A stretch of DNA of 64,000 nt from contig KN817589.1 of assembly GCA_000827495.1 (NCBI GenBank), forward strand, positions 78,776 to 142,775, in the 5' to 3' direction. A program made the position numbers and the translations under genes. Each line of letters opens with the position of its first letter. Position 1 is the stretch's first letter. Of the stretch, positions 37,399 to 57,460 are shown piece after piece. Source of the stretch: Hypholoma sublateritium FD-334 SS-4 (Eukaryota; Basidiomycota; Agaricomycetes; Agaricales; Strophariaceae). The notes under the pieces were generated by a model that did no database searches, had not been told where the DNA came from, and saw nothing but the letters and a program-made list of their open reading frames with translations.

Positions 37399-38409
37399 AT
37401 GTCGTTCGTCGCGAGGCTTTGGAATACCATCCGGCGTCCGGTACGTGCCACGTTATTCCCCTACTGCCACACGCACGAACTCAAAGCTCATGCAGCCTTC
37501 CGTGACCTAGGTCCGCTACGTAGGGAGAGATCTAGAAGGTGCAGTGCACACCCTCCTCAGAACCAACGGCATCATGGACTCACCCACACACAGGGAACAA
37601 ATTCTTCGAAGCACGGGCACCGAATGGTTCGCATCATCTTCATCTGCGCCTGTGGAGTCGCTGCACACACACGCTGACTACCGGGTTAGATCCGAGCTAC
37701 ACGAAGCGAACAGTGCAGTACTTCGAGGAGGAGGAGGTCTGGCGGTACATCAGCGGGGGCAAGCGGCTGCCGAGTGCGTCGCATCTCTCCTGCGCCTACT
37801 TAGTGGGTCGCTGACGTCGTCTTGTTCTTGCACAGTCCAATGGTCCGCGTGGCTCACGCACACACGGAAAGAACCCCCGACGATCGAGGTGCGTTCCCTA
37901 TTCGTGTTCTGCTCCCATGGGCGAAGGCTCACCGGCCGCAGGAGCTCGAGGCCGACATCCGGCGCCAGCTGCGCCTCTCGGCAAACGTCGCGCGCATCGA
38001 GGCCCGCGACGCTGCGGAGGCCGCGCAGATGCTGCAAATGCGCCAGCAGGACGCGCGGCTCGCGCTGGCGGACGCGTCGGCGCAGGCGCGCGGCGTGCCC
38101 GCGCCCGGGCCTGCCCCGGCCGCGTCCCAAACGGAGGCTGCGGGCACGGAGGCGGAGGCGCCGGCCGCGAGGAACGTGCGTGATGCGGGGGGCGCGGTGG
38201 TGCGCCCGCCGAGCTTCTTGACGCCGTCGAAGCCGCGGAAGGCACGCGCGTCGCCGGCGCCGTTCGCGCTGCCTGCGCTTGAGGAGGCGGCGGCGAGCGA
38301 ACAACGCGGTCCGGCGGCGCGCCCCGCGGAGGGTGCGGCGCCGTCGCCGTGGATATCGAAGCCCGACGAAACGGAGAGTTGGACGCCGCGCGCCGTGAGG
38401 CGGGGTTGA
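37399..38409 (+). CDS. NDUFAF2: Mitochondrial complex I assembly factor NDUFAF2-like
   Basis: B17.2-like protein that assists assembly of NADH:ubiquinone oxidoreductase in mitochondria. Six exons close in frame (37399-37440, 37511-37538, 37594-37626, 37690-37773, 37836-37888, 37942-38409), 235 aa. The start MSFVARLWNTIRRPVRYVGR, then DLEGNKFFEARAP, TKRTVQYFEEEEVWRYISGG and IQWSAWLTHTRKEPPTIEEL are the family signature. The last exon adds an alanine-rich coiled region and a Pro/Ala tail to RAVRRG that animal homologues lack. It stands tail to tail with acidic gene A1, 223 bp away. Three decayed copies lie downstream, so this is the only one likely to work. Confidence 0.93.
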
Positions 38410-38632
38410 ATTGGCGTTGCGGGGATAATGCAGCAGCGTGCGAGGGAGAGAAGGGCAGTTGATAATTGGCGTATGTATTTACATTTTTGTCAGTTGATTA
38501 TATTCGATACGGCTGCTAATTCGAGAGATGTCCAAGTTCGAACGGGGATTACAGGTAAGATAGCAAAGGTGCAAGGGAAAGGAACGCATATTATGTTGAG
38601 GCGGCAGGGAGGATCGGCTTCTCAATGTTGCA

Positions 38633-39077
38633 TCAACATTGAGGAGGTGGGCGAGGCGGAGGTGGGCGAATGGGGCCAACGACAGGTCGGACCACTTGTG
38701 CACGGGGCATGGCGGGGCTGTGTGGAGGGAGCGAATCAGCATGAAAGAATTGCTAGACAGCATCGAGAGGACGCACAATACCGGAATGTCCTCATCGTCT
38801 TCCTCTTCGTCGCTTTCCTGCTCGTCGTCATCGTCATCGTCATCGTCATCATCGTCGTCATCGTCGTCGTCTTCGTCTTCTTCCTCTTCCTTGGCGACAG
38901 ATTTCTTATCCTCTTTCTTATCCTCTTTGGCCTCCGTGGAGGCGTCTGCCGCCGCCAAAGTCAGCTTCCATATTCCCGCCGCTATTTGGACGGGATCTCA
39001 CCCGCTGCTGTGAAGGTCGCCGCCGTGGCCTGTGATGTGTCTGCTATCTTCTCAGCGGTGGTGGTGGTGGCGCTCAT
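38633..39077 (-). CDS. Acidic small protein family, member A1
   Basis: Exons 39002-39077, 38777-38945 and 38633-38717; intron phases 1 and 2; 109 aa in frame. Exon 1 is Ser/Thr/Ala-rich (MSATTTTAEKIADTSQ). Exon 2 has a Lys/Glu lead-in, then about 16 consecutive Asp and further Asp/Glu. Exon 3 is proline- and arginine-rich: PAMPRAQVVRPVVGPIRPPP. No domain I know fits; extreme acidity followed by a basic tail suggests a disordered protein, perhaps nucleic-acid- or histone-associated, but that is a guess. A TATA box lies about 45 nt upstream of the start. Treat as founder-type member of the array described under findings. Confidence 0.8.
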
Positions 39078-39118
39078 GTTGGGTGTTCGGGTCTGAATTT
39101 CGCTCAGAGGGCACCAAC

Positions 39119-39127
39119 CTATATATA
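39119..39127 (-). promoter_or_regulatory. TATA box of acidic gene A1
   Basis: A TATATATA-type element about 45 nt upstream of the A1 start. Matching elements stand at the same distance before A2 (40988-40994) and A3 (43873-43880), and a weaker one before the A4 relic (near 46205), each next to a shared GTGCGCC/TTATCTTGATG-like context, so the promoter was duplicated with the gene. Confidence 0.7.
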
Positions 39128-39178
39128 CGGCGCACCCGTCCTATCTTGACGCGCGGGGTATAGAACTGGGCGGCAGGG

Positions 39179-39420
39179 TTAGAATGCGGTGCGCTGTGAT
39201 TGGGCGGTGCAGGTGCCGATAGACGCCCAGATCTTGCCGAACTTCCTCCGAGCAATGCCTAGGTGCGCCGGCGCGTGATGGCAACAGCGATACCGCAACG
39301 GCGTGCGTACATTCCTTGGGAAGGCGTTGTGCAGATCCCAGCGGCTCGACTCTGTACCGCCATGATTTATTGCAACTTCATTCATCAAGAACTTGTCAAA
39401 AATCCGCACTAGCACAGCTT
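39179..39420. repeat. Duplicated upstream block of the A-type acidic genes, copy 1
   Basis: About 240 bp containing GCTGTGATTGGGCG, GCCCAGA, a GCGCCGGCG-type stretch, GATCCCAG, CCGCCATGATTTATT and TTCATCAAGAA. Recognisable again at about 41037-41270, 43925-44150 and, more diverged, 46255-46450. Minus-strand reading gives a conserved-looking peptide (INHGG, SRWD) that is broken between copies, so I treat the block as upstream non-coding or decayed DNA carried along with each A gene. Confidence 0.65.
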
Positions 39421-39599
39421 CTGGGCAGATAAGAAGTGCTCCGTAATAGGTACACCATTTGAATATTTGTATGAATCGTGATCGCTAACAAGCTATATAA
39501 ATACACACAGCACAATTCAAGTGAGAGAAAGAATAATTCATGGAAGGCGTAGAACTCCTGACATAGTATTCGCCTCACACAAATGCCAGAGAGCCAGAG

Positions 39600-40265
39600 A
39601 GTACAAGTGAGCTCGTTGTTCCCTCACTATTTCAAGCACAAACTCAAAGTTTATTAACTTACCGTGGCCAGGTCGGCCAAGTGGGAGAGATTCTAAAAGT
39701 GCACCGCACCTTCCATCGGGCTCAGCCGCACGACGATCTCGCGCCCGACACACAAGGACCGCATTCTAATATGCACGAGCACCTGATGGTTCGCACAATC
39801 TTCATCTGCGTTTGCCCTGAAGTCACCAACGCGAGCTGAGGCGGCGGTAAATACAAGAGACACGAGTCCCATGGCTCGCGCTCGCACGAAAAGAGCCCCC
39901 GGCGATCAAAGTGCGCATCTCCACTTGCAATTTGTCACAGAGTTAACATTGCAGAGACTGCAGGCGATCGAGACTGGCACCCCGCGCCATCTGCGCATCA
40001 AGGCAAACGTCGCACGCATCAAGGCGCGTATCGTGGCTGAGGTCGCCCGGCTACGCAGGCGTCAGTAGGACGCGTGGCTCGCCCTGGCAGGCGCGTTGTC
40101 AGCTCGGCGCAGCCCTGCCTAGGCCGCATCCCAACTGGAGGCTGCGGGGGCGGAGGCACCGAAGAAGCTGCGTGATACGGGCGGGGTGGCTATACGGCCG
40201 CCAAACAACTTGTCGCCGTGGATATCGAAGCTGGACGCCGCTCGCCGTGAGACGGGGCTGAATAG
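39600..40265 (+). pseudogene. Decayed NDUFAF2 copy 1
   Basis: The first-intron region and the exon 2 equivalent align with the intact gene at 37399 (shared GTAC donor area, ACTCAAAG, GGGAGAGAT-CTA-AAG). The last-exon equivalent reads LRIKANVARIKAR, parallel to LRLSANVARIEAR, then hits an in-frame stop at 40066-40068 and further breaks. Exons 4 and 5 are not recognisable. A small open frame of 65 codons at 39871 covers only part of it. Confidence 0.8.
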
Positions 40266-40472
40266 GCTTTGCGCATCATAATTTGGGCAATCTAGGCGGA
40301 GAAATACAGGCTGCAGTCAATAATGGCGTATGTATTTATGTTTTTGTCAGTCGACACTCTTTGATACGGCTGCTGATGCGGGATATGTCCAAGTTCGAAC
40401 GGGGATCACATATGAGGTACAAAAGACCCAGGGGAAAGGAATGTATATTGTGTCAAGGCAAGACCCAACTCA

Positions 40473-40945
40473 TTAGTGGCCTCGACCTCGACCTCGCGAC
40501 GGCCTCGTACTGTTACCGGCAACAGGCGGGTGCATTGGGGCACGGGGCATGGCTGGGCTGTGTGGAGGGAGGGCATAAGCATGAAAACGTGCTAAACAGC
40601 GACGAGAAAACGTACAATTTGGGCTTGTTCTCGTCGTCCTCCCCTTCGCCCTCTTCGTCCTCATCCTCTTCGTCGGAGTCGGAGTCGGAGTCGGAGTCGT
40701 CTTCATTCTCGCCCTCGCCCTCGTCGACATCGTCTTCATCCTCTTCCTTGGTGGCAGGTTTCTCCTCTTCTTTAGCCTCTGTATTGGCGTCTACTGCTAC
40801 GAAATTCAGTTTACAAGCTACTTCCACCGCTATTGGACCCGATCTTACCAGCTGCAGTGGAGGCCGCCGCCGCCGTGGTCTGCAACGCAGCATCCGCCAT
40901 CTTCTCAGGCGCGCTGGGAGCGGGACTGGGAGTGGAAGCACTCAT
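40473..40945 (-). CDS. Acidic small protein family, member A2
   Basis: Exons 40849-40945, 40616-40793 and 40473-40557, phases 1 and 2, 119 aa in frame. Same plan as A1: Ser/Ala/Thr-rich start (MSASTPSPAPSAPEKMADAA), Lys/Glu lead-in ANTEAKEEEK, a long Asp/Glu/Ser stretch, then PAMPRAPMHPPVAGNSTRP and a short RGRGRGRG-like basic end. The acidic exon differs from A1 in using D-S-D-S and E-G-E-G alternation rather than poly-Asp. TATA box about 45 nt upstream. The NDUFAF2 relic lies beyond its 3' end, as in the A1 unit. Confidence 0.8.
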
Positions 40946-41464
40946 AGTGGATGTTTGGGTCTGGATCCCGGTCGGACGGTTCCCAGCTATATAAACAGCG
41001 CCCTTGTTTGTCTTGACGCTCGGGGTATTGAACTCGGCGGGGCGCTGTGATTGGGCGCTGGCGATAGACGCCCAGACTTTGCTGGACTGCCTACGAGCCA
41101 TACCTAGTGCGCGCCGGCGCGTGTTGGGGTCAGCATCGTCGCAATGGCGTCAGGGCCCCGAGAAGGTTCAAGGCGCCGTGTGGATCCCAGCGACTTGGTT
41201 GTGCACCGCCATGATTTATTGGAACAGTCTCGCGTTCATCAAGAAACGGTCAGAACCCATTCTGACAGAAGACAAAGTGCGCTATCAGAACATATGTATG
41301 GATCGTGGTCAGCAGCAGCTTCCTAGGTATATATACACGTCTCGATTTGGTCTCTATATCACAAGGCAGCCAGGCAAATCGGAACAATACATCGAAGGTG
41401 TGGCGCACGCTCAGTGTTTCCCTATCAAACTCAAAATTGCACACCGCCCACTAGGAACCGCATG
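40946..41464. repeat. A2 promoter and duplicated upstream block, copy 2
   Basis: Carries the A2 TATA box (40988-40994) and the second copy of the upstream block, again with the CCGCCATGATTTATT and TTCATCAAGAA landmarks. No independent gene seen. Confidence 0.6.
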
Positions 41465-41990
41465 ATGGTATCACGCACGACTCGGACCCACAGCGAACAA
41501 ATTTTACCAGGCACGAGCACCGGATGGTTCGCACACGCCTGCAGCGTAGCCACCAAAACGAGCTGAGGCAGCAGAATCGAGCTATACGAAGAACACGGTG
41601 CAGCGGTTCGACACCGCAAGGGACTGCCGCGTCTCTGTTCTCTGCAGGTTGCTGATATCGTCTTGTTCTTGAAATTTTCGCCCAATCTATTAGTCACTAA
41701 AGTATAGCTTGCATCAAGCTTGCATCGACGCGGAAAGAGCCATGTCACATTGGTCGCGGGGGCTGCACCTTGCTAGCAGGTGTCGGCGCAAGTGCACCGC
41801 GAGCCCGTCCCCGGGCATGCCCCGGCCGCGTCCTAAACGGAGGCTGCGAAGGCGGACGTGCCGAGAAACGTGCGCGGGGCGCGACAGACTGCAGTGCACC
41901 CATGCAGCTCGTTGCCTCCTCGCCACCGTAAACCTCGAAACCCGGTGAGACAGGGAGCAGGGCGCTGCACACTGTAAAGCGAGGATAAAT
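41465..41990 (+). pseudogene. Decayed NDUFAF2 copy 2
   Basis: Recognisable pieces: an exon 3 equivalent near 41500 (ACAAATTTTACCAGGCACG against ACAAATTCTTCGAAGCACG), an exon 4 trace with a damaged frame near 41580-41640, and the alanine/proline-rich end near 41780-41960. Heavily deleted; the following 3' block (42030-42130) is shared with the other units, but no acidic gene remains between it and the next copy. Confidence 0.7.
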
Positions 41991-42130
41991 GCGCTTTTCG
42001 CGTATTAATCTAACCGGATGCGAGGCGAAGTACTACGGTCAATAATGGCGTATGTATTTGCTTTTTTTCCAGTAAATGGTATTCGATACGGCTGCTAATG
42101 CGGAGGGGTGTTAAAGTTTAGATGGGGATC

Positions 42131-42479
42131 ACATCATGATCACATACCATTGAAAAGACGCAAAGGAAAAAATGCATGTTGTGCTGAAGCTTGGTTGAGG
42201 CTACACCTAGATGATCGACCCCGTGGATATAGCCTCAGCGGGGAGCCGGCGATGGGGCGCGCGACACGGCCGCGGGACTGGGCGAGACTTCAAACTATGA
42301 TGGCTTGATGAAGGCTTATTGAAAATAAAATTATTCTTCCTTACACTCATTCCTATCAAACCATTGTTTTATTTGAACTACAACCGTCGCAGCCAGTTAC
42401 GACGCTGCGCGCAATTTTATGGGTCCCTGCCTTGTCCGTAGCTTTCTCACAAACCCGAAATGGCCTACTTATGTACACG
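42131..42479. other. Spacer, no gene seen
   Basis: Breakpoint region between the truncated third unit and the fourth. Only short open frames; GC-rich near 42210-42280 and AT-rich near 42310-42360. Confidence 0.4.
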
Positions 42480-43285
42480 GCAAATGCCAGCCGAACTGGT
42501 GCCGGTGATCGCCGGATCCGACGTTGCCCCGTACGCGCTCCTTGCAATTGAACTACAACGCTGGCGGGGATTTCCTGGCTGTTCTCTTCCATTACATCCA
42601 CCAATAACCAATCAACGTCGCTCGTGACAAGATTTTGGAATGCTATTCGCAATCTTGTACGTGCCTCGCTGTTCCCCTATTTTCTCATGTACGTGCTCAG
42701 CCTTCCGTTGCCTAGTAGGGAGGGATCCAGAATGTGCAGCTTGTAATGTGGTCTAATGCGCGACAGGCAGGGAACAACTTCTATGAGGCGCAGGTACTGA
42801 ATTGTTCGCATAAACTTCATCTGCGTTTGGCCACACACACGAGTGACGAGTGGATGCGGCGCCAGATTTGAGCTATACGAAGCACACTGTGTGGTCCTTC
42901 GACACAGAGGAGGCCTGTCGGTACACCAACGGGAGCAAGCGGCTACCAAGTGCGTTGTGTTCTTGCTCTGTTCTCTGCTCCCGAATCGCCGGCATTATCT
43001 TGTCCTTGCCCTGTCCTGTTATTGCGCCGTCCAATGGTCCGCGTGGCACACACACACCTGCAAAGTGCCTCGACGATCACGGTGCGCACCCTGGTCATAT
43101 TATACTCGCAAGGCGAACGTTGAACGTTGATCGTCGACCGCCTATAGGAGCTCGACGCTGACATCCGGCGCCGGCTGCGCGTCTCAGCCACATGCGCCAG
43201 CAGGACGGTCTGCTCGCCCTGGCGGACGCGTCGACACAGGCGCGTCGCGAACCCCCGCGTGCGAGGCGGAGCACTGTAGACAATA
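42480..43285 (+). pseudogene. Decayed NDUFAF2 copy 3, start codon lost
   Basis: The best preserved relic. The first-exon equivalent reads TSLVTRFWNAIRNL, with ACG at 42615-42617 where the intact gene has ATG, followed by the same GTACGTGCC donor. Exon 4 is nearly whole (LSYTKHTVWSFDTEEACRY) and exon 5 gives VQWSAWHTHT. The last exon is shortened after ELDADIRRRLRVSA. Lost start plus truncation argue for a pseudogene. Confidence 0.85.
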
Positions 43286-43429
43286 ATAGTATGTTTTTGT
43301 TTTTGTCGGTCGACACTCTTCGGTACGGCTGATAATTTGGTGAGATTACCAGGTTCGGAAGGAGATCGCATATAAAATACAAAAGTCGTAAGGGAAATGG
43401 ATGCGTATTGTGTTGAGGCGATACCCAGC

Positions 43430-43830
43430 TCAACGGGGCCTGGTAGGGCCGACGACGGGTCGCTTGACAGGTGCACGAGGCATGGCGAGGCTGCGCGTAG
43501 GGCGTCAGCATAAAGGATGTGCGGGACAGCGACGAGAAAGCGCACAATTTGGGCATGTCGTCTTCTTCGTCTTCCTCATCTTCGTCTTCGTCGTCCTCGT
43601 CATCATCGTCGCCCTCTTCCTCCTCCTCTTCCTTGACGGCAGGCTTCTTATCCCCCTTTTCCTCCGTGGAGGTGTCCGCTGCCACGAAATCAGTGTCCAC
43701 ACTATTCCCGCAGCTAATCGGAGCGCATCTCACCGGCTTCCGTAGAGGCCACCGCTGTGGTGGTCTGCGACGCAGCGTCGGCCGTCCTCTCAGGAGCACT
43801 TTCTGTGGTACTGGCTGTGGTGGCGCTCAT
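43430..43830 (-). CDS. Acidic small protein family, member A3
   Basis: Exons 43734-43830, 43546-43678 and 43430-43490, phases 1 and 2, 96 aa in frame. Starts MSATTASTTESAPERTADAA, close to A1/A2; lead-in TSTEEKGDKKPAVKEE as in A1; then E and D runs; exon 3 is LAMPRAPVKRPVVGPTRPR and stops. TATA box at 43873-43880. Distance and orientation to the NDUFAF2 relic are as in the intact unit. Open frame and clean splice sites after duplication suggest it is still selected, although I cannot show expression. Confidence 0.8.
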
Positions 43831-44329
43831 GGTGGTCGTTGGGGTCTGGATCTTGGTCGAAAGGTGCCAAGCTATATATATGGCGCACCCATCTTATCTT
43901 GATGTGTAGGGCACGGAGCTCCAATTCGGTGCACTGTGATTGGGCGACGGCGCTAGATACCCCTCCCGGACCGCTCCCCGCGCGGCGATCCCCAGTGCAC
44001 GCCAGCATCGTCGCAACCGCGCCAATGTCCTAGGAAGGCGTTGTGCAGATCCCAGTGGCTCGGCTGTGCACCGCCATGATTTATTGGAATGTTCTCGCGT
44101 TCATCAAGAACTCATCGAGAACCCGCCCTGATACGACAAATAAGAAGTGCTCTATAATAAGTACGCTATCTGAACATATGATTCGGTGACTGGTCAACTA
44201 ACTGCCCGGATATAAATACACTCTAGAAATCACAATGCAGCCAGTGCAGTTGGAACAATGCAGAAGACATCGCCTCACATGACACCCAGGGAGAGTGCAA
44301 AGGCCCGGGAGGCTACGCGTGCCCAAGGT
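43831..44329. repeat. A3 promoter and duplicated upstream block, copy 3
   Basis: Contains the A3 TATA box, the third upstream block with its CATGATTTATTGGAA and TTCATCAAGAA landmarks, and then the transition to the B-type genes. No gene of its own seen. Confidence 0.6.
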
Positions 44330-45051
44330 CTACTTGGGACCCACCACTGGATGCACTGTTTTTGTGCCTGATCCTGATCCGCCATCTTTCTTCTTGTCGT
44401 CCGTCTTGTCATCCGTCTTGTCGTCCGTGGCATCGTCCTCTGTGCCATCCGTCACATCGTCCGTCTTGCCGCCTGTGTCTTTATTAGCGGCTTTCTTCTT
44501 TGGGCCGTTTTGGTTTCCGGAGACCCCTTTCACTATTTTTGCTCGCGGAAGGCCTCTGTCGAATGTATTTTTCGTCAGTGATAAATGTGAGTTTTGATAA
44601 ACCAAGCATCATACCCAGCCCACGTGGGGAGTTCGTCCGAGTCCGAGTCCGCGTACTCATCCTCCCCCTCGTCGTCCTCCCCCTCGTCGTCCTCCCCCTC
44701 GTCGTCCTCCCCCTCGTCGTCCTCCCCCTCGTCNCCTCCCCCTCGTCGTCCTCCCCCTCGTCGTCCTCCCCCTCGTCGTCCTCCCCCTCGTCGTCCTCCC
44801 CCTCGTCGTCCTCCCACTCGTCGTCCGAGTTTTCGTCCTCCGATCCCGAGGCATCTTGATCGCCATTCGCCACTGGCGCTGCGTGTATTGGCTGGCTCTG
44901 GGTCTGTGGCTCCGTAACTGGGCCTCCGTCTAATGGCAAGAGGTCAAATGTCAGTGAAATTGCTCTCTTCAACGCATAATGCTTGTGAGAAAATACCTGG
45001 GCTAGGATCGCTGTCGAATTCAGGGAAAGCGCCCTTCATTGTTGAACCCAT
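44330..45051 (-). CDS. Acidic small protein family, member B1 (with minisatellite)
   Basis: Exons 44997-45051, 44615-44929 and 44330-44555, phases 1 and 2. Starts MGSTMKGAFPEFDSDPSP; exon 2 carries a repeated E-D-D-E-G unit and ends in LPTWAG; exon 3 reads GLPRAKIVKGVSGNQNGPKK and continues as a Lys/Asp-rich tail with repeated D-D-K-T. The summed coding length is one base short of a multiple of three, and the repeat unit holding the N at 44734 is 14 instead of 15 bases, so I assume one base is missing in the assembly; the corrected length would be 198 aa. Confidence 0.75.
44660..44825. repeat. 15-bp coding minisatellite in B1
   Basis: About eleven units of GTCGTCCTCCCCCTC (plus strand), translated on the minus strand as repeated acidic pentapeptides. 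One unit contains N at 44734 and is one base short. Confidence 0.9.
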
Positions 45052-45889
45052 GCGGTATTGGCGAGCAGTCAGATATCAAGAATCAAAGAATCAAGATCAG
45101 CTGAGCGGCGTTGTTGAAGGCGTTATTCCTGTAGCGATATAACAGTGTAGTGAGAGGACGCAGGTCGGGGGAAGCTGAGTAGATCAATCAGGGCCTAATC
45201 GACTGTCTCTCTTTATACTTACCTACCTCATAGCCCTAGAAAATGCCGCGTAACGACGCCCACAAATAGGCGTCTACTCAGAGATAGATAGCTTGCCTGC
45301 TTGGCAACCGTATGCGCGGATTACTGACACAGCTCCAAACGCGGTTTGTGCACTGGAAATTGACGTTTCACGAGCACGTCGTCCCAACAATGATAGAACT
45401 TCAGGACTTGAAACTCGGTCAAAAGGTGTCTGTCTGGGTGTACTATTAGGCAATGCAAATATTACATTGATCGAGGTCCACGCAATGCACACCGTGCACC
45501 TTTATAGGTTTTATTGCTTATTTATTGCACACCATTGGTGCACACCTTTCCTTCTTTATCATCACTACAGCGATTAGTCAAGGCTAAGGGCTAATGCAAT
45601 TGGACCATGGAAATCAGACAAGGTGCAAGTCTACGGCTTTACATGACTCCGAATGCTCCGGCGATCTGCTGGTGGTGAGAGCTCTCAGACAGCTCTCAGC
45701 AAACTCCCAGAGCAACTTATCGCCGTATACGGTATAAAGAGAAGAGAAGGATTATAAATATAACTCGGAAGATAGGCAGAAGATAATAGGTAGTTTCGAC
45801 TTGCAGATTGGAAAGAATGAGAAAACAACCTAGATACGCCGCGGGACATGTTCTTCCTGGGCTGTCACTTTCCAGAATCCAGATCTGCC
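45052..45889. other. B1 upstream region and spacer repeat
   Basis: Minus-strand TATAAAG near 45211-45217. A spacer with GGTCCACGC, GTGCACACC-type motifs and GCACACCTTTC (about 45475-45560) is shared with 47568-47640 downstream of B2's promoter, so spacer DNA was duplicated together with the B genes. No gene seen. Confidence 0.55.
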
Positions 45890-46188
45890 GCCTCTTGATT
45901 CCCGACAAGTCTGGAGCAGGAGGTACTTTTCCGGCTATGCTCTCTTTCCGTGCCGGAGCATCAATCGTGAGAAAACGCACAATTCGATACGACTCGTCGT
46001 TGTCTTCAGTCTTCCCGAGTCGTCCTCGTCGTCCTGCTCGCCATCTTCTTCCTCTCTCTCCTTTTCCTTGGTGCCGGGCTTCCTACCTTGTGGTTAAGAC
46101 AATCAGGATCTACGCTACTCCCAATCCCATCCGTGATTTGCCATGCGGCGTGTGCCGGTTGTGTGCCGGCGGTGGTCGCGGCGCTCAT
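45890..46188 (-). pseudogene. Acidic family relic A4, splice donor lost
   Basis: Promoter and start are of A type (MSAATTAGTQPAHAAW at 46188), but where A1-A3 have the first-intron donor GTGAGA or GTAAGA this copy has GATGGG. Without splicing the frame runs into basic sequence and stops. The acidic exon is still readable in another frame (KPGTKEKEREEEDGEQDDED), followed by a degenerate third exon with APARKESIAGKVPPAP. So both recognisable halves remain but no longer share a frame from this start. Confidence 0.7.
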
Positions 46189-46636
46189 GGTGAGCCAAGT
46201 TACATAGATATACGGCTCGCTCATCTTATCTTCATGCGCAGGGAATTGAACTCCTCGGGGGGGGGGGACTGCAATTTGCAACGCGGCACGATGTGAATGG
46301 GCGACGGTGCTAGACGTCCAGACCTTGGAAAGAAGTCTCTGGGAGCCCTGCGGGGACCTCCACGGTGTTTCCCAAAGCGTGCTATTGCGCGGGAGGACAG
46401 CATCGTCGCAGTTGCGTTCGCACCTCAAGAAGCCCATTTTTATGGATCGTGGTCACTAACAACTTTTCAGATGCACGTCTAGAAATTACAGTGCAGCAAC
46501 AGAAAGCGAAACATAGGTTGCATTGAAGGTGTCGGATTCATGACCGAATCGCCTCATAGCCATAGTCGCAACACCGCATAGAGTACCTCCGTACATGGGC
46601 GACTGCAGCCACGGAGGGTTTACTTTGAACCTCTCA
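46189..46636. repeat. A4 promoter and duplicated upstream block, copy 4
   Basis: TATA-like element near 46205 with the TCTTATCTTCATG context, then the most diverged upstream block. A run of nine to ten G occurs near 46258-46267. No gene seen. Confidence 0.5.
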
Positions 46637-47136
46637 TCATTTGTCTGTCTTTGGTTTCTCGTCCTTTGCGCTTGGTCTGTCATTTTTTGCCTTTTCGTCC
46701 TTCTTGTCTCCTGACTTGCTTCCCTGCGTGGGCTTCTCTGACTTCTTGTTCGGACCGTGAATGTTTCCCCGGATTGGTTTCTCCGCGCGGGCGCGAGGCA
46801 TGCCTCTATCAAAGCCCTTCATCAGCGACGTTTAAAGCTGCCAGAGACCAAAGAACATACCCATGCCACTGAAGGCTGTCGTCCGATTCCGCTTCTTCTT
46901 CCTCTTCCTCTTCCTCTATATCGTCATCTGAGTCTTCATCTCCTGATCCTGAGTCAACTTCATTGTTGTTTTCCGTAGGTTCAGCGGGCTCGCCCGCCAG
47001 CGGCGCCACATCTGGGTCTGGTATTCGTCAAGGATCAATGGGCTATATCTCTCAATGCACTCAGTGTCCAGGAATATGTACCAGTGCTCGGATCGACGAT
47101 TTCTGTATGAGCACTCTTCGTCGTTATCGTGTTCAT
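46637..47136 (-). CDS. Acidic small protein family, member B2
   Basis: Exons 47082-47136, 46861-47011 and 46637-46805, phases 1 and 2, 124 aa in frame. Starts MNTITTKSAHTEIVDPST; exon 2 begins APLAGEPAEPTEN, holds GDEDSDDDIEEEEEEEE and ends LQWHG; exon 3 reads GMPRARAEKPIRGNIHGP and goes on as a Lys/Asp/Ser-rich tail to KTDK. A probable 5' UTR intron (donor CAAG|GTACGC near 47206, acceptor one base before the ATG) and a minus-strand TATAAAG near 47293 precede it. Confidence 0.8.
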
Positions 47137-47861
47137 ACTGAGTTAGCAGGCTATAGCAGGATCAGCTTTGCCATTTGAGTCCAACAGCGACAGTAGCGTA
47201 CCTTGATGAATACTGTAGTACGAGGGATGGGGTGGGGTGGGCAGCGGTCGGAGGGATTGTGGATGAATAAGTTGAGTTCTATCTCGTCGTCTCTTTATAG
47301 CATATTCACCTGCTGCATAGCCATGATAAATGCCGAGTGGTGACTCGCCCACAGATAGTAGGCGCTTGCCCCGTGGGAAGCCATTATTACACTTGCCTGT
47401 GAAGTTTTAGCTTTGAACGGGGTTGGTGCCCTTCAAACAATGAAATTTTACGAGCTTCTGACGCGACAGAGATACAGGATATCATAGATCTGTGGCTAAG
47501 TGTGTACCGGTAGCGTAATTTTCTGCTTACTTACAACGCGAATAATTGAATTGTACATTGCCCGAGGTCCACGCAGTGCACACAGTGCACACCTTTAGTA
47601 CACCTTTGTTATAATTGTTGCACACCTTTCGTTTTTGTATTTCCGCATTAGCGACGAGTCAGAGCGAAAAGCCCGCAAGGCAATTGGAATATTATGGTCA
47701 GTAATTTTCATTGCTTACCATTGCCAATATTAATGGGAGCCCTCAGCGCTCCAGCACCGATACTGAGCGGAAACTTACTACTTTATAATAAATATAACAT
47801 TAACTGACAATAATTCCCTTGTGGTCTATGTCAAATATAAAACCGTTCAAATGGCCGCAAT
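47137..47861. other. B2 upstream region and spacer
   Basis: Holds the proposed B2 leader and TATA element, then the second copy of the GCACACC-rich spacer (about 47568-47640). No gene seen. Confidence 0.5.
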
Positions 47862-48329
47862 TTATGTGATTATGCAACCGATGCTGTGACCTTTCACCGG
47901 TTTCTCTTTCTTGTTGTCCTTCTTGTCTCCCGACTTCGTGCCTTTTTTGTTTCCAGCAACACCAGACACCGGAAGTCCGCGTGGGATGCCTCTATCAAAT
48001 AAGCCCTCATCGGCAATGTGCAGGAATTGACAGAGTCCAAATAACATACCCTTGCCACACAAGGCTGTCTTCCTCCGCCAAATCTTTCCTTTCTTCCTCA
48101 TCCTCGCGATCGTCATCTGAGTCTTCGTCGCTTGAGTCAGAATCGCCTATATCCTCATGCTCCGTAGGGGTTGCTTTCTCGGGCTCACCCGCCATCGGCG
48201 CCGTGACTGGGACTGGCATCGGCCAAGCATCAGTGGACTGACTCTCAATGCGCTGAATGTTCAGGAACATGTACCGGTGTTCGGGTTGCCGAAAATTTCA
48301 GTGGAAGCGCCTTTCTTTGTTACGTCCAT
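47862..48329 (-). CDS. Acidic small protein family, member B3
   Basis: Exons 48275-48329, 48050-48212 and 47862-47991, phases 1 and 2, 115 aa in frame. Starts MDVTKKGASTEIFGNPNT; exon 2 begins PVTAPMAGEPEKATPTE, has SDSSDEDSDDDREDEEE and ends LVWQG; exon 3 is GIPRGLPVSGVAGNKKGT and a Lys/Asp tail. The closest relative in the array is B2. The leader still has the CAAG|GTACGC donor, but the matching acceptor just before ATG is altered, so its 5' UTR may be processed differently. Confidence 0.8.
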
Positions 48330-48947
48330 GTCGAGTTATGTTCCGCGGGCCATTAAAATTGACCAGATATCAGGACCAGCGTAGTAACGAGTCCAACAGC
48401 GAGCAGCGTACCTTGATGAGTACTGCAGCACAGGAGATGTGGTAGTGGCTCGACACAGGCTAGAGGCTGAGCGTTGTGTTGGTCCGTGGATAAGTAAGGT
48501 AAGCCCTATCTAACGTTCGCCTTATAACTTATTCAACTACTGGCATAGCCCTGGTAAATGCCAAATAACAACGATCACAACTTGAAAAGGGCGCCTGTAC
48601 CATATCTTATTTACTTGGTAACCATATCGTGTAAATCACACAGGTTTGAAGAAATCTTTACAGGTGGGTCGGCTCAGCGGAGATGGAGAAGGTCATCATA
48701 ATGTGATTAGGTGTGTTCTAGGCAAGTTGATGAGCAAGTGTATGTCTGGTTCTAGTGCCGCCGTGATCCATGATGTGAGTTCCGATCTGCTTGCGGGGAA
48801 CCTTAAGCTCTTGAAAAAATAGCATATTTGAGCATATAAATATAAGCTATGTACGCATAGAAACCCCGAAGAAAGTCAGATGCGGGAGTGCATTAAAATT
48901 CAGTGCGAATTGAAGCTGAAGTAAATATCATGCCAAAATAGTACTAG
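48330..48947. other. B3 upstream region, no gene seen
   Basis: Contains the B3 leader, a minus-strand TTATAAGG near 48516 and the start of the region beyond the B4 stop. Only short open frames. Confidence 0.45.
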
Positions 48948-49436
48948 CTAGGGACTAAAAATAAGCGACAGATTACTAAATATAGCTCGTGAGGGTGGGC
49001 TGGGCAACTTGAAGGAGGGATCAGCGTTGGACACTGGCAGAATCTTTCCTCGGGCACCATATCTGAGTAAGTATTAGGTGGATCAGAGTGGGTGTATCAT
49101 GATGGTTTTCGAACACGTACCCCTCCCATACAGGTGCAACATCATCGCCTTCCTCCTGGTTTCGGAATCCGGGGTCTGAATCACTGCCGCTGTCCGAGCT
49201 GTCGTCACCGGAGCCTACATCACCATCCGAGCCCTCATTGTCTGCTTCAATATTAATATGCAACGGTTCAAAATCCAATATTTTATAAAACATTTGGCTT
49301 TACCTGTGGCAGTATCTTTATCACCGCCGTCGGTAATAGGTACGATGGGTTGAACGAGTACTTCACTGGCTACGAGCTCTTGCTGTGCTAAAGCATCGTG
49401 GACGCTAGTAGTAGATTCCGAGGAAGGTGCAACCAT
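48948..49436 (-). CDS. Acidic small protein family, member B4
   Basis: Exons 49304-49436, 49121-49241 and 48948-49062, phases 1 and 2, 122 aa in frame. Exon 1 is longer than in B1-B3 (starts MVAPSSESTTSVHDALAQQE). Exon 2 is acidic but uses G-S-D and D-S-G-S-D patterns, ending PVWEG. Exon 3 reads YGARGKILPVSNADPSFKLP, so the PR core is weakened to G-A-R-G, and the end is unlike the Lys tails of B1-B3. A TATAAA-type element lies near 49468 (minus). Confidence 0.78.
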
Positions 49437-50629
49437 TGCAAGAGTGGTTGGTATAAGAGTAGGTTTATAATGGAATTCTGAGCCTTTTCGTTGTTTTATA
49501 CTACATGTAGCGGCTAGATACATGCACTAATTTACTTGTATTAGGAAATATCCTTCTCTATTAAATCTTGGAGGCTATGCTACAAGGTCATCATGTTCAA
49601 CTATTTCCTACCTCTTGATCGAAAATTAAGAGAAGTCAGAGAATCATCGTACCTTTGATGTATACCTTGACGCCATTGTAAATTTCGCAGTGTTCTACTA
49701 GAACAATGTTCAGGCTATTCGGTGGGCACCGTACCGATCAATGGTGGACTCATCATGATATGCGTAAATGCTGTAAAAATTATCACACTAACTTATATGC
49801 AAGTAAGTGGGATCGGTCGACCAGTACAAGAACAATACGGGAAAAACGATCATAGTACAGCTAATACTGTATCTTCTTCTGATGGGAATAATAGTTGGCA
49901 TTGATTGTACAGTACACTTCCAATTGAAGTGCACCAGTGTAGAACATTTCAAAAAATGAATAAGCTCTGTAATACGCGGTACGCACACAAGTACACATTC
50001 AAGTTAAGTAATCATTACTTTCTGCAGAACACTGTAGAAGAGCGCCTTTGCTTATGGCGTGGCGGGCCGGTCGAGGCCTAGACCTCCGGAGATCACCGGC
50101 GGAGCTAGAATCACGTAGGATAAGCGTCGTAGCCAGTGACAGGCCTCTTCCTCCGAGTCATCCTTGAGTCATCCACTTAGTTTTGCTGCTCGCACCCACC
50201 CGCCGCAGCTCCCTCTGAGCCATCTCCCAGTCCCGGATCGCATCCAACGCATGCAAAAATTGCACTGTAAATATCAAAGGCCTTGCCGCAAAAGCCGTGC
50301 ATCCTGTGCGCTAAATACAAGGAAAATATCGACATCACAGATTGATCAAAGATAGAGACGTGGAAGCGATGCACGCAATTGAAAAAAAGTAACATTAATA
50401 TGTCTCACAAACTTTAATTTATTGGAAAGTAAATGCTAAGAAAGGTGCGTTCAGAGTATGAGCAACCCGTTGAACAATGAAGACAAGAATCCAAAGAAGG
50501 GAATCATGACGGCCAAATTCAGAAGTTGGTAAAAGAAATTGGACTAAGAAAGAAGAAATAAATCTTACAATCTTAGCAATTGTAGATGGAACTTGTAAAA
50601 CCAAATCATCCACCCCATCAAATCCAGCC
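49437..50629. other. Spacer, no supported gene
   Basis: AT-rich with short open frames. A short stretch near 49650-49680 resembles the leader of B2/B3 (GTACCTTTGATG against GTACCTTGATG), so it may hold a decayed leader copy. Confidence 0.4.
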
Positions 50630-51132
50630 TCAGGATTTTCCAGTGGGGTTTTCAGGTGGTGTAATGGGTCTCGGTGGTGGTTTGACTTTGGGGCCAGCAA
50701 TGGTATGCTTTACTGGTGCTCGGGCGCCATACCTAGTAGGCGGCCGCGTGTATCAGTAAGGTGATATGTAACAGATTTCCGTAACACATACCCTCCCCAT
50801 GTAGGCGGTGCATCATCCTCAATCTCCGCATTGGTGTCGAAATCAGATTCGTCGTCTGAGCCTTCTGGGTTGTCCGAGTCCGAGTCTTCGGTCTCTTCAT
50901 TAGCATCAATATGTCTCGTTTTCGACGCGTCTTTGCATTCTAGAAAAATGTATGTTAGTTGTATGCGCATTGAATTCACTCAGAAGTCGTGGTTACCTGC
51001 GGTAGCATTCTCGGGCTTCTGAGTGCCACTGGGAGCAATGTTCTCGACGTTACCGGCTGTAGGTTGAGGCTCTTTCCGCGCTGAAGCCTGGATGGCGTTC
51101 GTAGTCGCTTCTGCGCCGGGTAAGGAAGTCAT
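50630..51132 (-). CDS. Acidic small protein family, member B5
   Basis: Exons 50997-51132, 50792-50939 and 50630-50732, phases 1 and 2, 128 aa in frame. Starts MTSLPGAEATTNAIQAS; exon 2 reads HIDANEETEDSDSDNPEG and ends PPTWGG; exon 3 is YGARAPVKHTIAGPKVKPPP and stops after ENPTGKS. The third exon links the B group to A1, which has VVGPIRPPPP at the same place. All splice sites are consensus. Confidence 0.8.
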
Positions 51133-51998
51133 GTGGGCTTTGTGTGCTCTGTGGATATTGTAAGAGAAAGGTTATGGAAATTCAAGACTGGGTTTGGCGG
51201 CCTTAAATAAAATTAGGAGAGCCGAGAAATATCCTTTGAGGCTATGGGTCTATGATATGCCAATATAACCTGATAGTATAACTATGCACAGCCCACTTGC
51301 ATAGTAGTATTGTGCTATGTAGATGGGCTATACTAGTATTATGGAGAGTAAATGAGCGCTACATAGGATACAACGTACATTCCGGCGCGCGTATCCAGTA
51401 CAAATTGGGTCTCAGCATTGTCTCAGCATGTATGTTCAATTAAATAGCCTGCTTTCAATTTCTAAATATCTCCTGCTAAGCGTAGTACTACTTACGATGA
51501 CTGGAATATTTGCCCACTGCACACAATACACAGTCATTACCAAAGAGGCCGTCAGATAATTTTCGCAAGCTATCTTCATGAACAAGTTATATTCCCATTG
51601 ACATTGAAAGGCAGTGTCGAAGTACTCCAGGGTTAGTATTAGTAGTACTAATCGATCATACAGTCAATTAGAGAAATTAACCAACTTGATGAACGCCGTA
51701 ATGTATGTAGTAGTAAACGGTAATGTAATCAAATTTGGTTATTCTTTGTTCATAGCTCTAACTCGAAAACTTCAAGCACTGAAACGGCTGTGAGGCTCAA
51801 GTGAGGCTTGTGCAAGGCAAGTGCCAGTGCAACGGCGGCGCCAAAATTAATACACGGCTCCGCACGGGCCGGACGAACTGGTGTTTGTGCGTGAGCCTGC
51901 GAGCAACATGCGCATATTGCGAGGTCAGCGGCGTTATTGGTGAGTACGAGGTTGTTCTTCCCTTATTTTCGCCTCTTGACGTTACGTTACTCCGCCAC
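51133..51998. other. Divergent intergenic region, no gene seen
   Basis: Between B5 (-) and the HPEG-segment protein (+). An open frame continues upstream from 51999 to 51801, but its residues lack the composition of the gene and are probably leader sequence. Confidence 0.45.
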
Positions 51999-54900
51999 AT
52001 GGGCTCAGCCCTTTCGCCACTCCGCGCACTGCTTATCGCACTTCGGAGGCTGGTGTCATGCATTGCCAATCCAAAGTTCATACGAGCTGCACTCACTGGG
52101 CTCGTCCGGCGTTTGGCGTTGTGGGCTGCTTTTCTTCGATCAAAACTATTCCACAAGAGACGGATTGACAAACCACCAGACAAGAGCATTGTTAGTTCGA
52201 ATGATGATTCCAAGACGGCAGTACGGGATGTACCAGCCTACACCATTGTACGGAGCGGGGAAATTGTATCTTTGAGCGGAACGGCACTTTCTCTTTATCC
52301 ATATTCATCCAACGGTATTCGCAACTCGCGCGCTCCAGCAAGGTCAGGACACCCTCAGACTCGTAATTCTTCTCGGAACCGGGAATCGGACACCAACTCC
52401 TTCGCAGGATCTACTTGGGAACTGGCACTCAACCCCATCGGCCCTCCGTCCAGACCTCATTCACGGCTCAGAACTCCTCGACGTCAATTCTCAACCTCAT
52501 TACCCGATATCAACGACTCAGTTCGGCATAGGACAGACAATGACAATTTGTCGTGGCTTCCTCATCGATCTCCCCCACCCGGCATTGGCATAGAATTGGC
52601 GTCTCCAACACTAGAAGGACATCCACCATGGAGTTCCAATGACTCTGAAGTGCACATTCAATTTCCGCTGGAGACTGGTAACCCGATTCCCTCAGAACAA
52701 CTAACATACTCCTCTCCATGCCATTCTCCTCCACCGGACATACAGGTCGAAGTAACTTCTCCAATCGAAGTTGAAGTCGCTTCTCCTGCAAACTTGAGCC
52801 AGACAAGCCTTGAAGTACCTAATGAAATAAGCGATAAAATGACCCCCAGACCCATTTCGCCTGCCGCTTCCGATTCTCAAGGAAGTCGTTCTGGAGTCGT
52901 TCTAGATGTCATACCTCTTGGCCCACCGTTGCTGCAAAATTCGGAAATCGAGGTACACATCATCAAGGCTATCTTGCCCGAAGATACTAGGCGCTATGCG
53001 CGACGCACCAAAATGCGAGTGTTTTAATATTACCGCTTCAAATGCATGGGTCCCTGACGCACACCTAGTGCGCATAGATGGTGTAGCTATCAACTTGAAC
53101 CAATGACAACGGTGTTCGATACGTAAATATCTTTTGCTCCTTATTTCCTTCCACTGTCTGATATCGGACGCAGGTCATCAACTCCCCCTGGTTGGCTCAG
53201 GCTTGTTCACCCTGAAGGAGCTCGTTATTTCTATCATGAAGACAAGGTCTGCCTGAAAAATCTTTCGCATGTCCGAAACTCACCCTCTACGTCACTTCTT
53301 CAGAACGTTTACACAGATTCTGATCTTACTGATTTCCGTGTCTACGAGCGACTCATGAACGACGTCTTCCGACTTGAACGCTTAATTTCCACCTTCGACA
53401 AGCCTCTCCCCAAAGGCGCATCGCTTATGATCGATGTTTCCTACGAAGACGACAACAAGGGTTCCCTTCAAACGGAATACTATTATGCGGATCATGATGA
53501 AAGAATCATTTTCTTTGTACACCCTTCCAATACAGATGATATGCCCTGTACGTTTGAGGTTAATGGACCAAAATCGTACCAACACCTGGGTATGTCGATG
53601 GTCCGTAGAAATATACTCGGAAATTTACGCGACCCTAGGATTTGTCATGCAGTCTCAGTATTGGTGAGCTCCATTAAAGAAGATACTTCGATGCAATAAA
53701 TAACGCCTTCTCAAGGATGTTCGTTTCCTTATATCCTCGCTGCCTTATGTTGACGGATGAACTGCTTTGCGAGCTTCGCGATATCGTCCTTTTTCTCATC
53801 GGAGGTGGGCAATGCCATATCATAGAAAATTTTATGATACAGTTTAAGCATGTTCTTCTGTTTGCAGACCACATGACATCGCCATATTCCACAGCCCCCT
53901 ACACGATGGCTGACTTGTTCCAAATTTTATCTTTGATAGACGGCATGGAAAGTAAGTTGTTGCTCGGTTCGTAGTAACGGGGCTCGATGACTTATGTTAA
54001 AATCAGAGAATGTCGGAAAGAGGACGGCTGGAACAATGAGTCTATTTGGTAAATAACTTTGTATTCGTCTAGCAATGTTCCAATACTCATCCGGTATTCG
54101 TCCAGCTCGCCACATGCACATATTCTGTGGGTCATCTCTACCACTGATCCTGGTATTGGCTGATAAATTTTTGGCATAGATCATTCAAAGTATCTTAACT
54201 GCTACGGAGAAACATTTTCGCGTATTGAACGACATTTCTCTATCTTCGGCGACCCTATCGACAAGCGCACTTGGCTTGTCAAGACGCTCTCCTTTGTCCT
54301 ATTTTCAGCTCCCGACGTTCATCTTCGCAATCTTCAAAAAATGTGGGTGGACGGCATGCTGCACAAATCTGTCTGGGAAGATTCGACAAAAAAGCTCAAC
54401 GAGGAGTGGCAAGAATTCATTTTCTTTGTAAGCTCTCTTAGTCTGGGTGCACGGATTTTACCGAGCCAATCTTCTTGGGATCACAGGCCACCGTTATGCT
54501 CACTTCGAACGTGGGATATCTTGCGATTCAAAGTGTCGATATCGACATGGGTGCGGCGAGATCTCCCGGGCAGATTGCTAGCTATCTTTCTGTTGTCGCC
54601 AACATTGGAAGTATCATCCTAGGCCTATTGTTAATGCGTCAAAATCGCACGAAAAGGACTGAAACAGCTGATGAAGTCGTAAGTTGATCTTTTGCCTTGA
54701 CAATCACTTTTTGTTGACCACGCCGTTCTTATCAGCAAAAATTCTTGACTCAAAAGAATCATCCCTTGCTAGGATTGGAAACTCTGGCCATTCTGTACAG
54801 CTTGCCTTACGCGCTGTTGATGTGGGGGTACGGATTTTCAGACCCTAAATCTCTGCCTGACCTTAATATATTGTTCTCTAACAGTGTTGTGTCCTTCCTC

Positions 54901-55206
54901 GTTGCATTCTGCTGCTTATTTTTCCAAAATTCCACCGCTGAATCTCGCGCCTGGGTTGGATCGCTATCCGTCGCGGTCGCGGTTCTCATCGTCTGGTGCA
55001 TTGTTACCTCCTGGGAATCGCAAGGCGAGGAAGATGCGCCCGATCGGCCCCTCGTACAAGTGGAATCACAGGTTGAAGACGACAACGAAGAAGATGATGA
55101 AAAGAGATCAAGACAGGGAATCAGGGAAATCCTGGATATCATCCGTCACATACCGGATCTCGTATACCGCCGTGGCTCGGTCGACTCTGAGAAGACAGCT
55201 GTGTAG
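51999..55206 (+). CDS. Multi-exon membrane protein with HPEG-YFY (WW-like) segment, copy 1
   Basis: I recognise a type common in Agaricomycetes but know no function for it. Exon 1 (from 51999, MGSALSPLRALLIALRRLV) gives a basic N-terminus and a long Ser/Pro-rich region. The next exon has PPGWLRLVHPEGARYFYHED, resembling half a WW domain. Further exons read FVMQSQYWMFVSLYPRC, LTDELLCELRDIVLFLI, YSTAPYTMADLFQILSLIDG, NCYGETFSRIERHFSIFGDP and KTLSFVLFSAPDVHLRNLQK. The C-terminal part has about four hydrophobic helices (for example LLGLETLAILYSLPYALLMW, AVAVLIVWCIV) and an acidic end to SEKTAV. Most junctions close in frame, but exon 1 to exon 2 does not, so one small exon is probably missed near 52970-53170. 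The start at 51999 is preferred over 51801 because conservation-like sequence begins there. Confidence 0.8.
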
Positions 55207-56170
55207 CGAACGACCCATCAACGCCCTTTCTCAACGAACTAATGCCGAAACGACACACCAGACACTGGAGCTCCTCGAATTGCATACCCCTCTTAGCCCC
55301 CATGTCCATACCTGTGAGAAACAATGTATCATATGTAGCTGTAATTGGCACGTACATGTATCATTTCGCGCTATATATTTTGTAATCTATGCCACGCACT
55401 TGGCGTGCTATGTACTTATTTTACCGTCTGCAGTGTGGGATGTGCATGGTCACATTAGTACGAGGCCGGCTCGAGGCGATGTGGTTATGTCGCGCACCAA
55501 AATTAAGATGTTGACCGTACCAAACTGATCGCAGTTTCTCAGTTACGCCGCAAGGTTCAGCATTGAGTACGCTGTGCCTATCGCTTGTCAACAAGCTTAA
55601 AAATTGTACTGGCTATATGTATTGGAGAACGTCACAGAGCATGGTTGACACCAAGGTTCATACTTGAGGTAATGGAAGAGATACAGCTACCGGGCAACTA
55701 CCAGGCCCGGGTATATACATATATCTTCGACCGCCTGAAAGCGCCTGAAGCATATCTGAGTAAGTATCCTATGCGGATCGCAGCACAGCCTTTGGTCCAC
55801 TGTGACTGCCTTGTGTATCTAAGAATGGTTTTGGCGCCAATGCACACCTTTACTTCCAACAATCTTCGCGAGAATACTAGGGATGTAGTGGCACTGGTAG
55901 AGCTACTGTACAGTATGTGTCGACCGCTATGAACGAAACAACTCACCCAACTTCCCTCTCCCGGGGTATATTTATTTCGGTTCTGAGGTACGTTCGGTAA
56001 ATTTCAAGTTCGGATCATGGAATACGGAGATGGCAAAAGTTGCATTTGCGAAGTAGACGCGATTGAATATTGCGCCGCAATGTAATTGCTCCGGGGACTA
56101 GACGGGTGGCGTGAACGGAGCACAAGTGCCTGGTATTTAAGGGTACTGGTATGGATAGATGCTCCTTAGT
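55207..56170. other. Intergenic, no supported gene
   Basis: 3' side of the preceding membrane-protein gene and of B6. Short open frames only, including a 115-codon one at 55585-55932 without motifs. Confidence 0.4.
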
Positions 56171-56735
56171 TTACGGAGAGGCTATTTGAGAGGGCTGCTT
56201 GGGCTTTGGTCTCGGAGGTTTCGGACCAGCGACAGGTTTAGTGATCCGGCCCCGAGGTGCACTGCAAAATATTGTTCAGAAATCCAACATAAAGATTGTG
56301 CGCAGGGGATAAGTGCACTGACTCAGTGTCAAAGCGCGGAAAGTCATCATCGGAATCGATGTTGCTGTCTGGCTTGTCATCGTCGCTGTTGTCATCGCCA
56401 TCCCTATCATCACCTTGACCGCTTGGCTCCCTTTGTAGTTCAAGCTGTACAGTATCTTTAGTGTCGCTGTCTGGAATCATATTGGCTGAGCTGGATCAAT
56501 GGAAAAGACGCGAAAGGTTTTTGCATACCAGTCGATGTATTGTCACATAGGTCCGTATTCTCTAATTCGGATACGGTAGATAACAGTGCAGGCGTTTGAG
56601 CACAATCTTTTGCAGACCCGACGCTCAGAACTGCTCCATCGAGCGCTAATGGTGATCGAGAGTAAGAAACAAGGACATCAATAACATTGTGGGGCGTACC
56701 CAGCTCGGATTCGTCCCGTTGTATGCCTTCAATAC
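56171..56735 (-). CDS. Acidic small protein family, member B6 (5' end unresolved)
   Basis: Exon 3 at 56171-56261, exon 2 at 56323-56470, and an open first exon starting at 56529 on its 3' side; phases are again 1 and 2. Exon 2 reads DDRDGDDNSDDDKPDSNID and exon 3 reads APRGRITKPVAGPKPPRPKP, matching B5 and A1. The first exon (ALDGAVLSVGSAKDCAQT, ELENTDLCDNTST) stays open upstream to about 56735 without a Met, so a further small 5' exon must exist or the gene is damaged. The exon 2 donor is GTCAGT. It lies between the two HPEG-segment genes, about 5 kb from the rest of the array. Confidence 0.65.
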
Positions 56736-57460
56736 CGCTAATCGTAGCTCATCTTAGATTGGTAAACGAAAGGATTAGCCATAGGGGTCTACTGACGACT
56801 CTAGGAGGGTATCTTCCGGCTGGACCGACATGCTGAATCGTAGGTTGTGTCTGGATTGCGGGAATGTCTATAAAAACGTGTATATTCCGATGGTAGGGGG
56901 GCCGGAGGTGCATAGGAGCGAGCCGCGGCGTCGATGGTGTCAATTGTTATGACGTGACCGGCAGTTGATATTCAAGTTGGTCCTTTGACCGTCTGCACTG
57001 TGCAGTCCAGACGCCTAGTTCTTGCGTAGCTCGCTGGCCACATAAGTAGTATTGAGTACAAGATTTCTCACTTTCTATAGTATCTGACGAGCCAGGGCGG
57101 TCCAGACATCAAATGACAGACTACAATTTACGAGAAACGATTGCCACGGCGGTGTGTGTGCAGCTTTGCAAGACAGGGCAATCGAGCTGCTGAAAGGTGA
57201 CCCACCCATTAGACGGCGGTGACTGATAATCATATGAGCCGCGTAGTCAGTTGCTGAGTCGGGCTGTGTTTTCATTCCATTGGCGATGTAGACACTGCCA
57301 GACAGTATATACTATATACTATAGGGGCTGTGTATTAGGTCTCAGGCGGTGTGCACGGCATTGACACGTGCGCGTGAGCGCTTGATATTATAAGTAGCCG
57401 TTTCAACAGTCATCTCAAATACCCAACATTTACCTCCACATCGATTCAGTCAGCCTAGAC
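56736..57460. other. Intergenic, promoter of the following gene
   Basis: A TATTATAAG element near 57387-57395 and a CA-rich leader precede the start at 57461. No gene seen otherwise. Confidence 0.45.

Follow-up and report, generated by a model that had tools for sequence, protein, structure and literature searches.

Acidic tracts are found in many unrelated proteins, and the annotation of small acidic disordered proteins is difficult, since their low complexity defeats homology search. Fungi have small acidic proteins such as the CHZ-type H2A.Z chaperones and Sem1/Dss1, and the proteins described here are like them in this respect. Histone binding by acidic proteins has been described for two systems. 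Prothymosin alpha is reported to bind the globular domain of histone H1.0 while remaining disordered (PMC11971343). The APLF acidic domain uses aromatic anchors, including W485 on H2B, together with an R-finger (PMC9328677).

We analyzed a window of 64,000 nucleotides from a contig of Hypholoma sublateritium, and all coordinates below are positions in this window. It contains a minus-strand array of genes predicted to encode short acidic proteins, for which an earlier note knew of no named family. This held in the resources that we compared. No Pfam model reaches its cut-off with any of seven full proteins or with four third exons; the Pfam matches of A1-A3 all fall short of the cut-off and seem to reflect acidity alone. 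The prothymosin/parathymosin family (PF03247) gives 13.7 bits with A3 (E 0.078) against a cut-off of 23.9, and is not listed at E<=1 for the other six scanned members. The Pfam domains of CHZ and of Sem1/Dss1 are not among the E<=1 matches of the seven members. Searched with the exon-3 profile only, the PDB sequences gave 0 matches at E<=10, and no homology to a solved histone chaperone was found. Rfam gave 0 matches at E<=1 over 36000-58000, and none of the literature titles among the matches listed is on this family.

Gene models of the array

Nine minus-strand loci (A1-A3 and B1-B6) and one relic (A4) were rebuilt from the sequence and have in common a core of three exons separated by introns in phases 1 and 2, as had been described before. 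Seven members are intact and have three exons each: A1 (38633-39077, 109 aa), A2 (40473-40945, 119 aa, with the tail GRGRGRGH), A3 (43430-43830, 96 aa), B2 (46637-47136, 124 aa), B3 (47862-48329, 115 aa), and the probable members B4 (48948-49436, 122 aa) and B5 (50630-51132, 128 aa). These lengths are exactly those given in the earlier note. The first intron is in phase 1 and the second in phase 2 in all seven, and the introns are 55-70 nt long. The B3 and B2 regions share 67.5% DNA identity across 600 columns (BLAST of the region against itself).

B1 (44330-45051, minus strand) has a frame broken in the acidic exon by an N at 44734, and its splice sites and third exon are readable. The N lies inside a 15-bp repeat, so the total length of B1 cannot be read. 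This repeat (44660-44826; 11.2 copies, 96% match) codes for DEGED units, and its length may perhaps vary from strain to strain.

The end of the array as first described (56735) falls within B6 (56171-56831, minus strand). For this gene we chose the fullest of four candidate models, a five-exon gene that starts at an ATG at 56831, has two extra introns upstream and encodes a predicted protein of 142 aa. The last three exons have the family plan, and the last two introns are in phase 1 and then phase 2, as in the other members. Protein lengths across the eight readable members range from 96 to 142 aa. A CTRAY branch-point motif is found in the last 45 nt of 11 of the 17 predicted introns, against a mean of 2.5 and a maximum of 8 in 2000 shuffles. 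We conclude from these gene models that the array encodes one predicted protein family with a fixed exon plan.

Upstream of A1-A3 there is a CCAAT at -109 to -126 and a TATA at -48 to -50. The B genes do not have CCAAT or TATA at those upstream places, and this A-only layout suggests that the copies may serve different conditions.

Other frames are interleaved with the array or lie near it. The plus-strand frames at 53127-53699 and 57746-58219 have in common a PPxW...HPEG..YFY stretch that, by reading, may be WW-like, and hydrophobic stretches occur in the frames neighboring them. No Pfam match above cut-off was obtained for five pieces at 51783-55206 and 57746-58219. On the minus strand at 61123-62204 there are pieces that resemble an XPG/5'-3' exonuclease-like nuclease, with two weak Pfam matches that are both below cut-off.

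Family membership and a conserved element

We asked how far the family stands above chance. A DNA pattern found A1-A3 and B6 in the window and nothing in 100 shuffles; it was written by hand from these same four members and scanned on the window that holds them. A strict splice-aware motif scan found four of the nine loci (B1, B2, B3, and B5), with 0 on the plus strand and 0 in 20 simulated windows, under a rule too strict to admit the remaining five. A profile built from all nine third exons matched these nine, its own training set, at E<=4.4e-6 in a six-frame translation of the contig (A1 at 1.7e-9), and the next match had E 0.29. The rest of the 213,313-base contig, which served as the wider control (the genome has 46.1 Mb in 281 contigs), holds no further member by this profile.

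When each member was held out in turn, the third exon alone placed five of the nine (A1, A3, B1, B2, and B6) above every unrelated piece. B3 fell below unrelated pieces (E 6.2, rank 16), and A2, B4, and B5 were absent from the best 16 rows. The third exon alone was thus dropped as a family marker because it fails for four held-out members, and the exon boundary was therefore added to the profile. This boundary profile extends the third exon by the split codon and by nine codons of exon 2. It was used to rank 3916 candidate splices taken from all of the 213-kb contig (phase-2 GTNN[G/T]...YAG introns of 50-75 nt with no early stops), after removal of the training members and of alternative splices to the members' acceptors. 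All nine held-out members (A1-A3 and B1-B6) rank 1, with E values from 2.9e-9 to 0.0068; the best remaining non-member candidates have E values from 0.007 to 0.33.

Boundary profiles built from fewer members recover less. When neither B4 nor B5 is among the training members, B5 drops to rank 3 (E 0.71) and B4 to rank 42 (E 20). A profile from the A set only places B6 second (E 0.11), behind an alternative A2 acceptor, and does not clearly recover the other B members. A profile from the B4/B5 set gives B1 first (E 0.18). By these rankings the A genes, B1-B3, and B6 are a sound predicted family; B4 and B5 are the weakest link and are graded as probable members because both drop in rank when left out together.

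Within its own genome, seven exon-3 queries matched only inside the array in a word-based, insensitive search. The same search missed known paralogs in the window (the B3 and B5 protein queries found 0 of them), and a B2-B3 DNA query matched only itself, without the B2-B3 cross-match seen by BLAST. The negatives are therefore weak, and argue against close copies elsewhere, not against distant ones.

All nine members have an aromatic residue four to five positions past the last D/E of the acidic tract, a phenylalanine in A1-A3 and B6 and a tryptophan in B1-B5. It is followed, after three (A) or four (B) residues, by [P/A]-R-[A/G] in every member and then by [V/I]-x-G in eight of nine, B4 being the exception. 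The arginine is invariant in the exon-3 alignment. The near-constant spacing of this aromatic-arginine element in nine of nine members points to a specific interaction, and among nine paralogs with a shared intron frame such a conserved element stands out from noise. The first description of the array did not include the shared aromatic residue, and the element common to the nine is sharper than was then described.

Around the element, the charge layout is also common to the seven intact members. The net charge of the acidic tract, taken over its best 30 residues, is -10 to -28, and that of the Pro- or Lys/Arg-rich tail is +3 to +8. The N-terminus is variable across members. The tail is Lys-rich in B2 and B3 and Pro-rich in others, a difference that may reflect different partners.

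Duplication, relics and selection

The array lies beside the proteasome gene RPN3, which has clear Pfam matches (TPR_PSMD3_N, E 3.7e-62; PCI domain, E 3.2e-18). Beyond its end and convergent to A1 is a plus-strand segment (37451-38603) that, together with an A gene, is the unit of tandem duplication. BLAST of the region against itself found four copies of it, beside A1, beside A2 (39614-40415), beside a relic at 42038-42289 (41485-42139) and beside A3 (42768-43420). The first copy contains a putative reading frame of 201 aa, open stretch X, at 37804-38409 on the plus strand, which has no Pfam match above cut-off; another frame is open for 236 aa. The later copies are shorter, and their longest plus-frame open stretches are 104, 84, and 109 codons beside A2, the relic and A3, respectively. 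RPN3 was considered as part of the duplicated unit and set aside, as its frame stops at 37193 and the repeat starts at 37451. Because the A genes recur together with the plus-strand DNA from 37451, we conclude from the repeat structure that they multiplied via tandem duplication of the segment plus its A gene and that it is mainly the A half that has survived. Intact copies kept their frames, splice sites and phases.

The 3' flanks of the A genes (38436-38603, 40316-40415, 42038-42139, and 43257-43420) are well conserved, even beside the mostly lost relic gene. An RNA gene was considered for this flank and rejected, with no Rfam match at E<=1.

The locus at 42038-42289 (minus strand) is not in the earlier list, and we read it as an A-gene relic because its flank (42038-42139) resembles the A2 3' flank, with 76% identity in the self-comparison by BLAST and in alignments. 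The adjoining degenerate exon 3 (42143-42289, minus strand) is the tenth match of the nine-exon profile over six frames of the whole contig, the one at E 0.29 noted above, and ranks among unrelated pieces in the held-out runs. We therefore count it as a predicted eleventh locus with a solid flank and a tentative exon 3. In the A4 relic (45975-46188, minus strand) the start codon can be recognized, as can a donor resembling donor 2 and a portion of the acidic exon, but not exon 3; 46003-46085 is 73% identical to A3.

The earlier note suggested diversifying selection, which the substitution rates do not bear out. We calculated dN/dS (NG86, protein-guided alignment) for five of the 21 pairs of intact members, in which synonymous sites are near saturation and the acidic tract is of low complexity, and obtained 0.27 for A1-A2, 0.25 for A1-A3, 0.16 for A2-A3, 0.40 for B2-B3, and 0.52 for B4-B5 (bootstrap upper limits 0.50, 0.48, 0.33, 0.66, and 0.84). 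Single exons in these pairs reach at most 0.66, and none is above 1. These values favor purifying selection, of differing strength, over diversification.

In A1-A3, pS is 0.59-0.65, well above the differences in the non-coding parts, where identity over ungapped columns is 0.73-0.79 in introns, 0.67-0.75 in promoters and 0.71-0.74 in 3' flanks. Saturation, effects of the alignment or a genuine constraint on regulation could each be the cause. An open frame by itself proves little, as a single frame of this kind would stay open with a chance of 0.02-0.13 under neutral change at d=0.335.

Proposed function and relation to known proteins

Our best reading is that the array proteins may be disordered binders of histones or other basic proteins, similar to prothymosin or APLF; we put its probability at about one in three. 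The proteins would be intrinsically disordered and intracellular. The acidic tract would grip a basic partner, most probably histones or some other basic protein of the nucleus or the ribosome, and the aromatic and arginine element would dock in a fixed pocket and so provide specificity. The basic tail could act as a nuclear signal, contact nucleic acids or serve as an intramolecular brake. To judge from the promoter layouts, A- and B-type copies would be expressed under different conditions. A more far-reaching version, which we regard as doubtful, is that these are basidiomycete-specific stand-alone disordered chaperones, with acidic tract, aromatic and arginine as a minimal clamp for histones or basic proteins, that expanded beside RPN3 to form subfamilies with different regulation.

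The main rival is a young lineage-restricted family under weak constraint, in which charged disordered proteins would have a general role (stress protection, hydration or crowding) and copy number would drift by tandem duplication and decay. We consider it almost as probable as the preferred reading. Two of the eleven loci are relics, the A coding DNA has diverged about as much as its introns and flanks, and the seven own-genome protein queries, in an insensitive search, found no member elsewhere, all of which fit such drift. It sits less well with dN/dS below 1 in all five pairs tested, and with an element whose near-constant spacing in nine of nine members points to a specific interaction. 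A tandem array with a variable first exon, and an exon-3 DNA identity of only 0.54 between A1 and A2, would also be expected of a recognition or arms-race family (allorecognition, or response to competitors or viruses) with diversifying copies. That explanation seems unlikely to us, given that dN/dS exceeds 1 in none of the five pairs and none of their single exons, and that no hydrophobic leader is visible by eye at the N-termini of the seven intact members.

Acidic residues near an aromatic resemble acidic activation domains, and this proximity in nine of nine members could indicate transcriptional co-factors. However, no DNA-binding domain reaches the Pfam cut-off in the seven proteins, and most members have only one aromatic in the element, so we hold a co-factor role to be improbable. 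The array could also be non-coding and represent an acidic repeat region whose copies are decaying, given the low-complexity repeats in A1-A3 and B1 and given A1-A3 introns and flanks that are no more diverged than the exons. The splice phases, the branch points, the recovery of all nine held-out members and the dN/dS values argue against this, and we consider it very improbable.

Under the preferred reading, as binders of basic proteins, the array members can be set beside described systems. The conserved element itself offers a motif that can be tested and a starting point for searches of fungal proteomes. Prothymosin alpha and parathymosin are like the array proteins in being short, very acidic and probably disordered. 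Prothymosin also has basic residues near its end, as the array proteins do. We know of no aromatic-arginine element in prothymosin, unlike in the array proteins. The APLF acidic domain combines an aromatic anchor and an arginine contact in an acidic region, like the array element (PMC9328677). An aromatic close to acidic residues, the APLF-type trait, is found in nine of nine members; this is a resemblance only, not homology. The array proteins differ from APLF in that they stand alone, are encoded with a fixed core of three exons and end in a basic tail.
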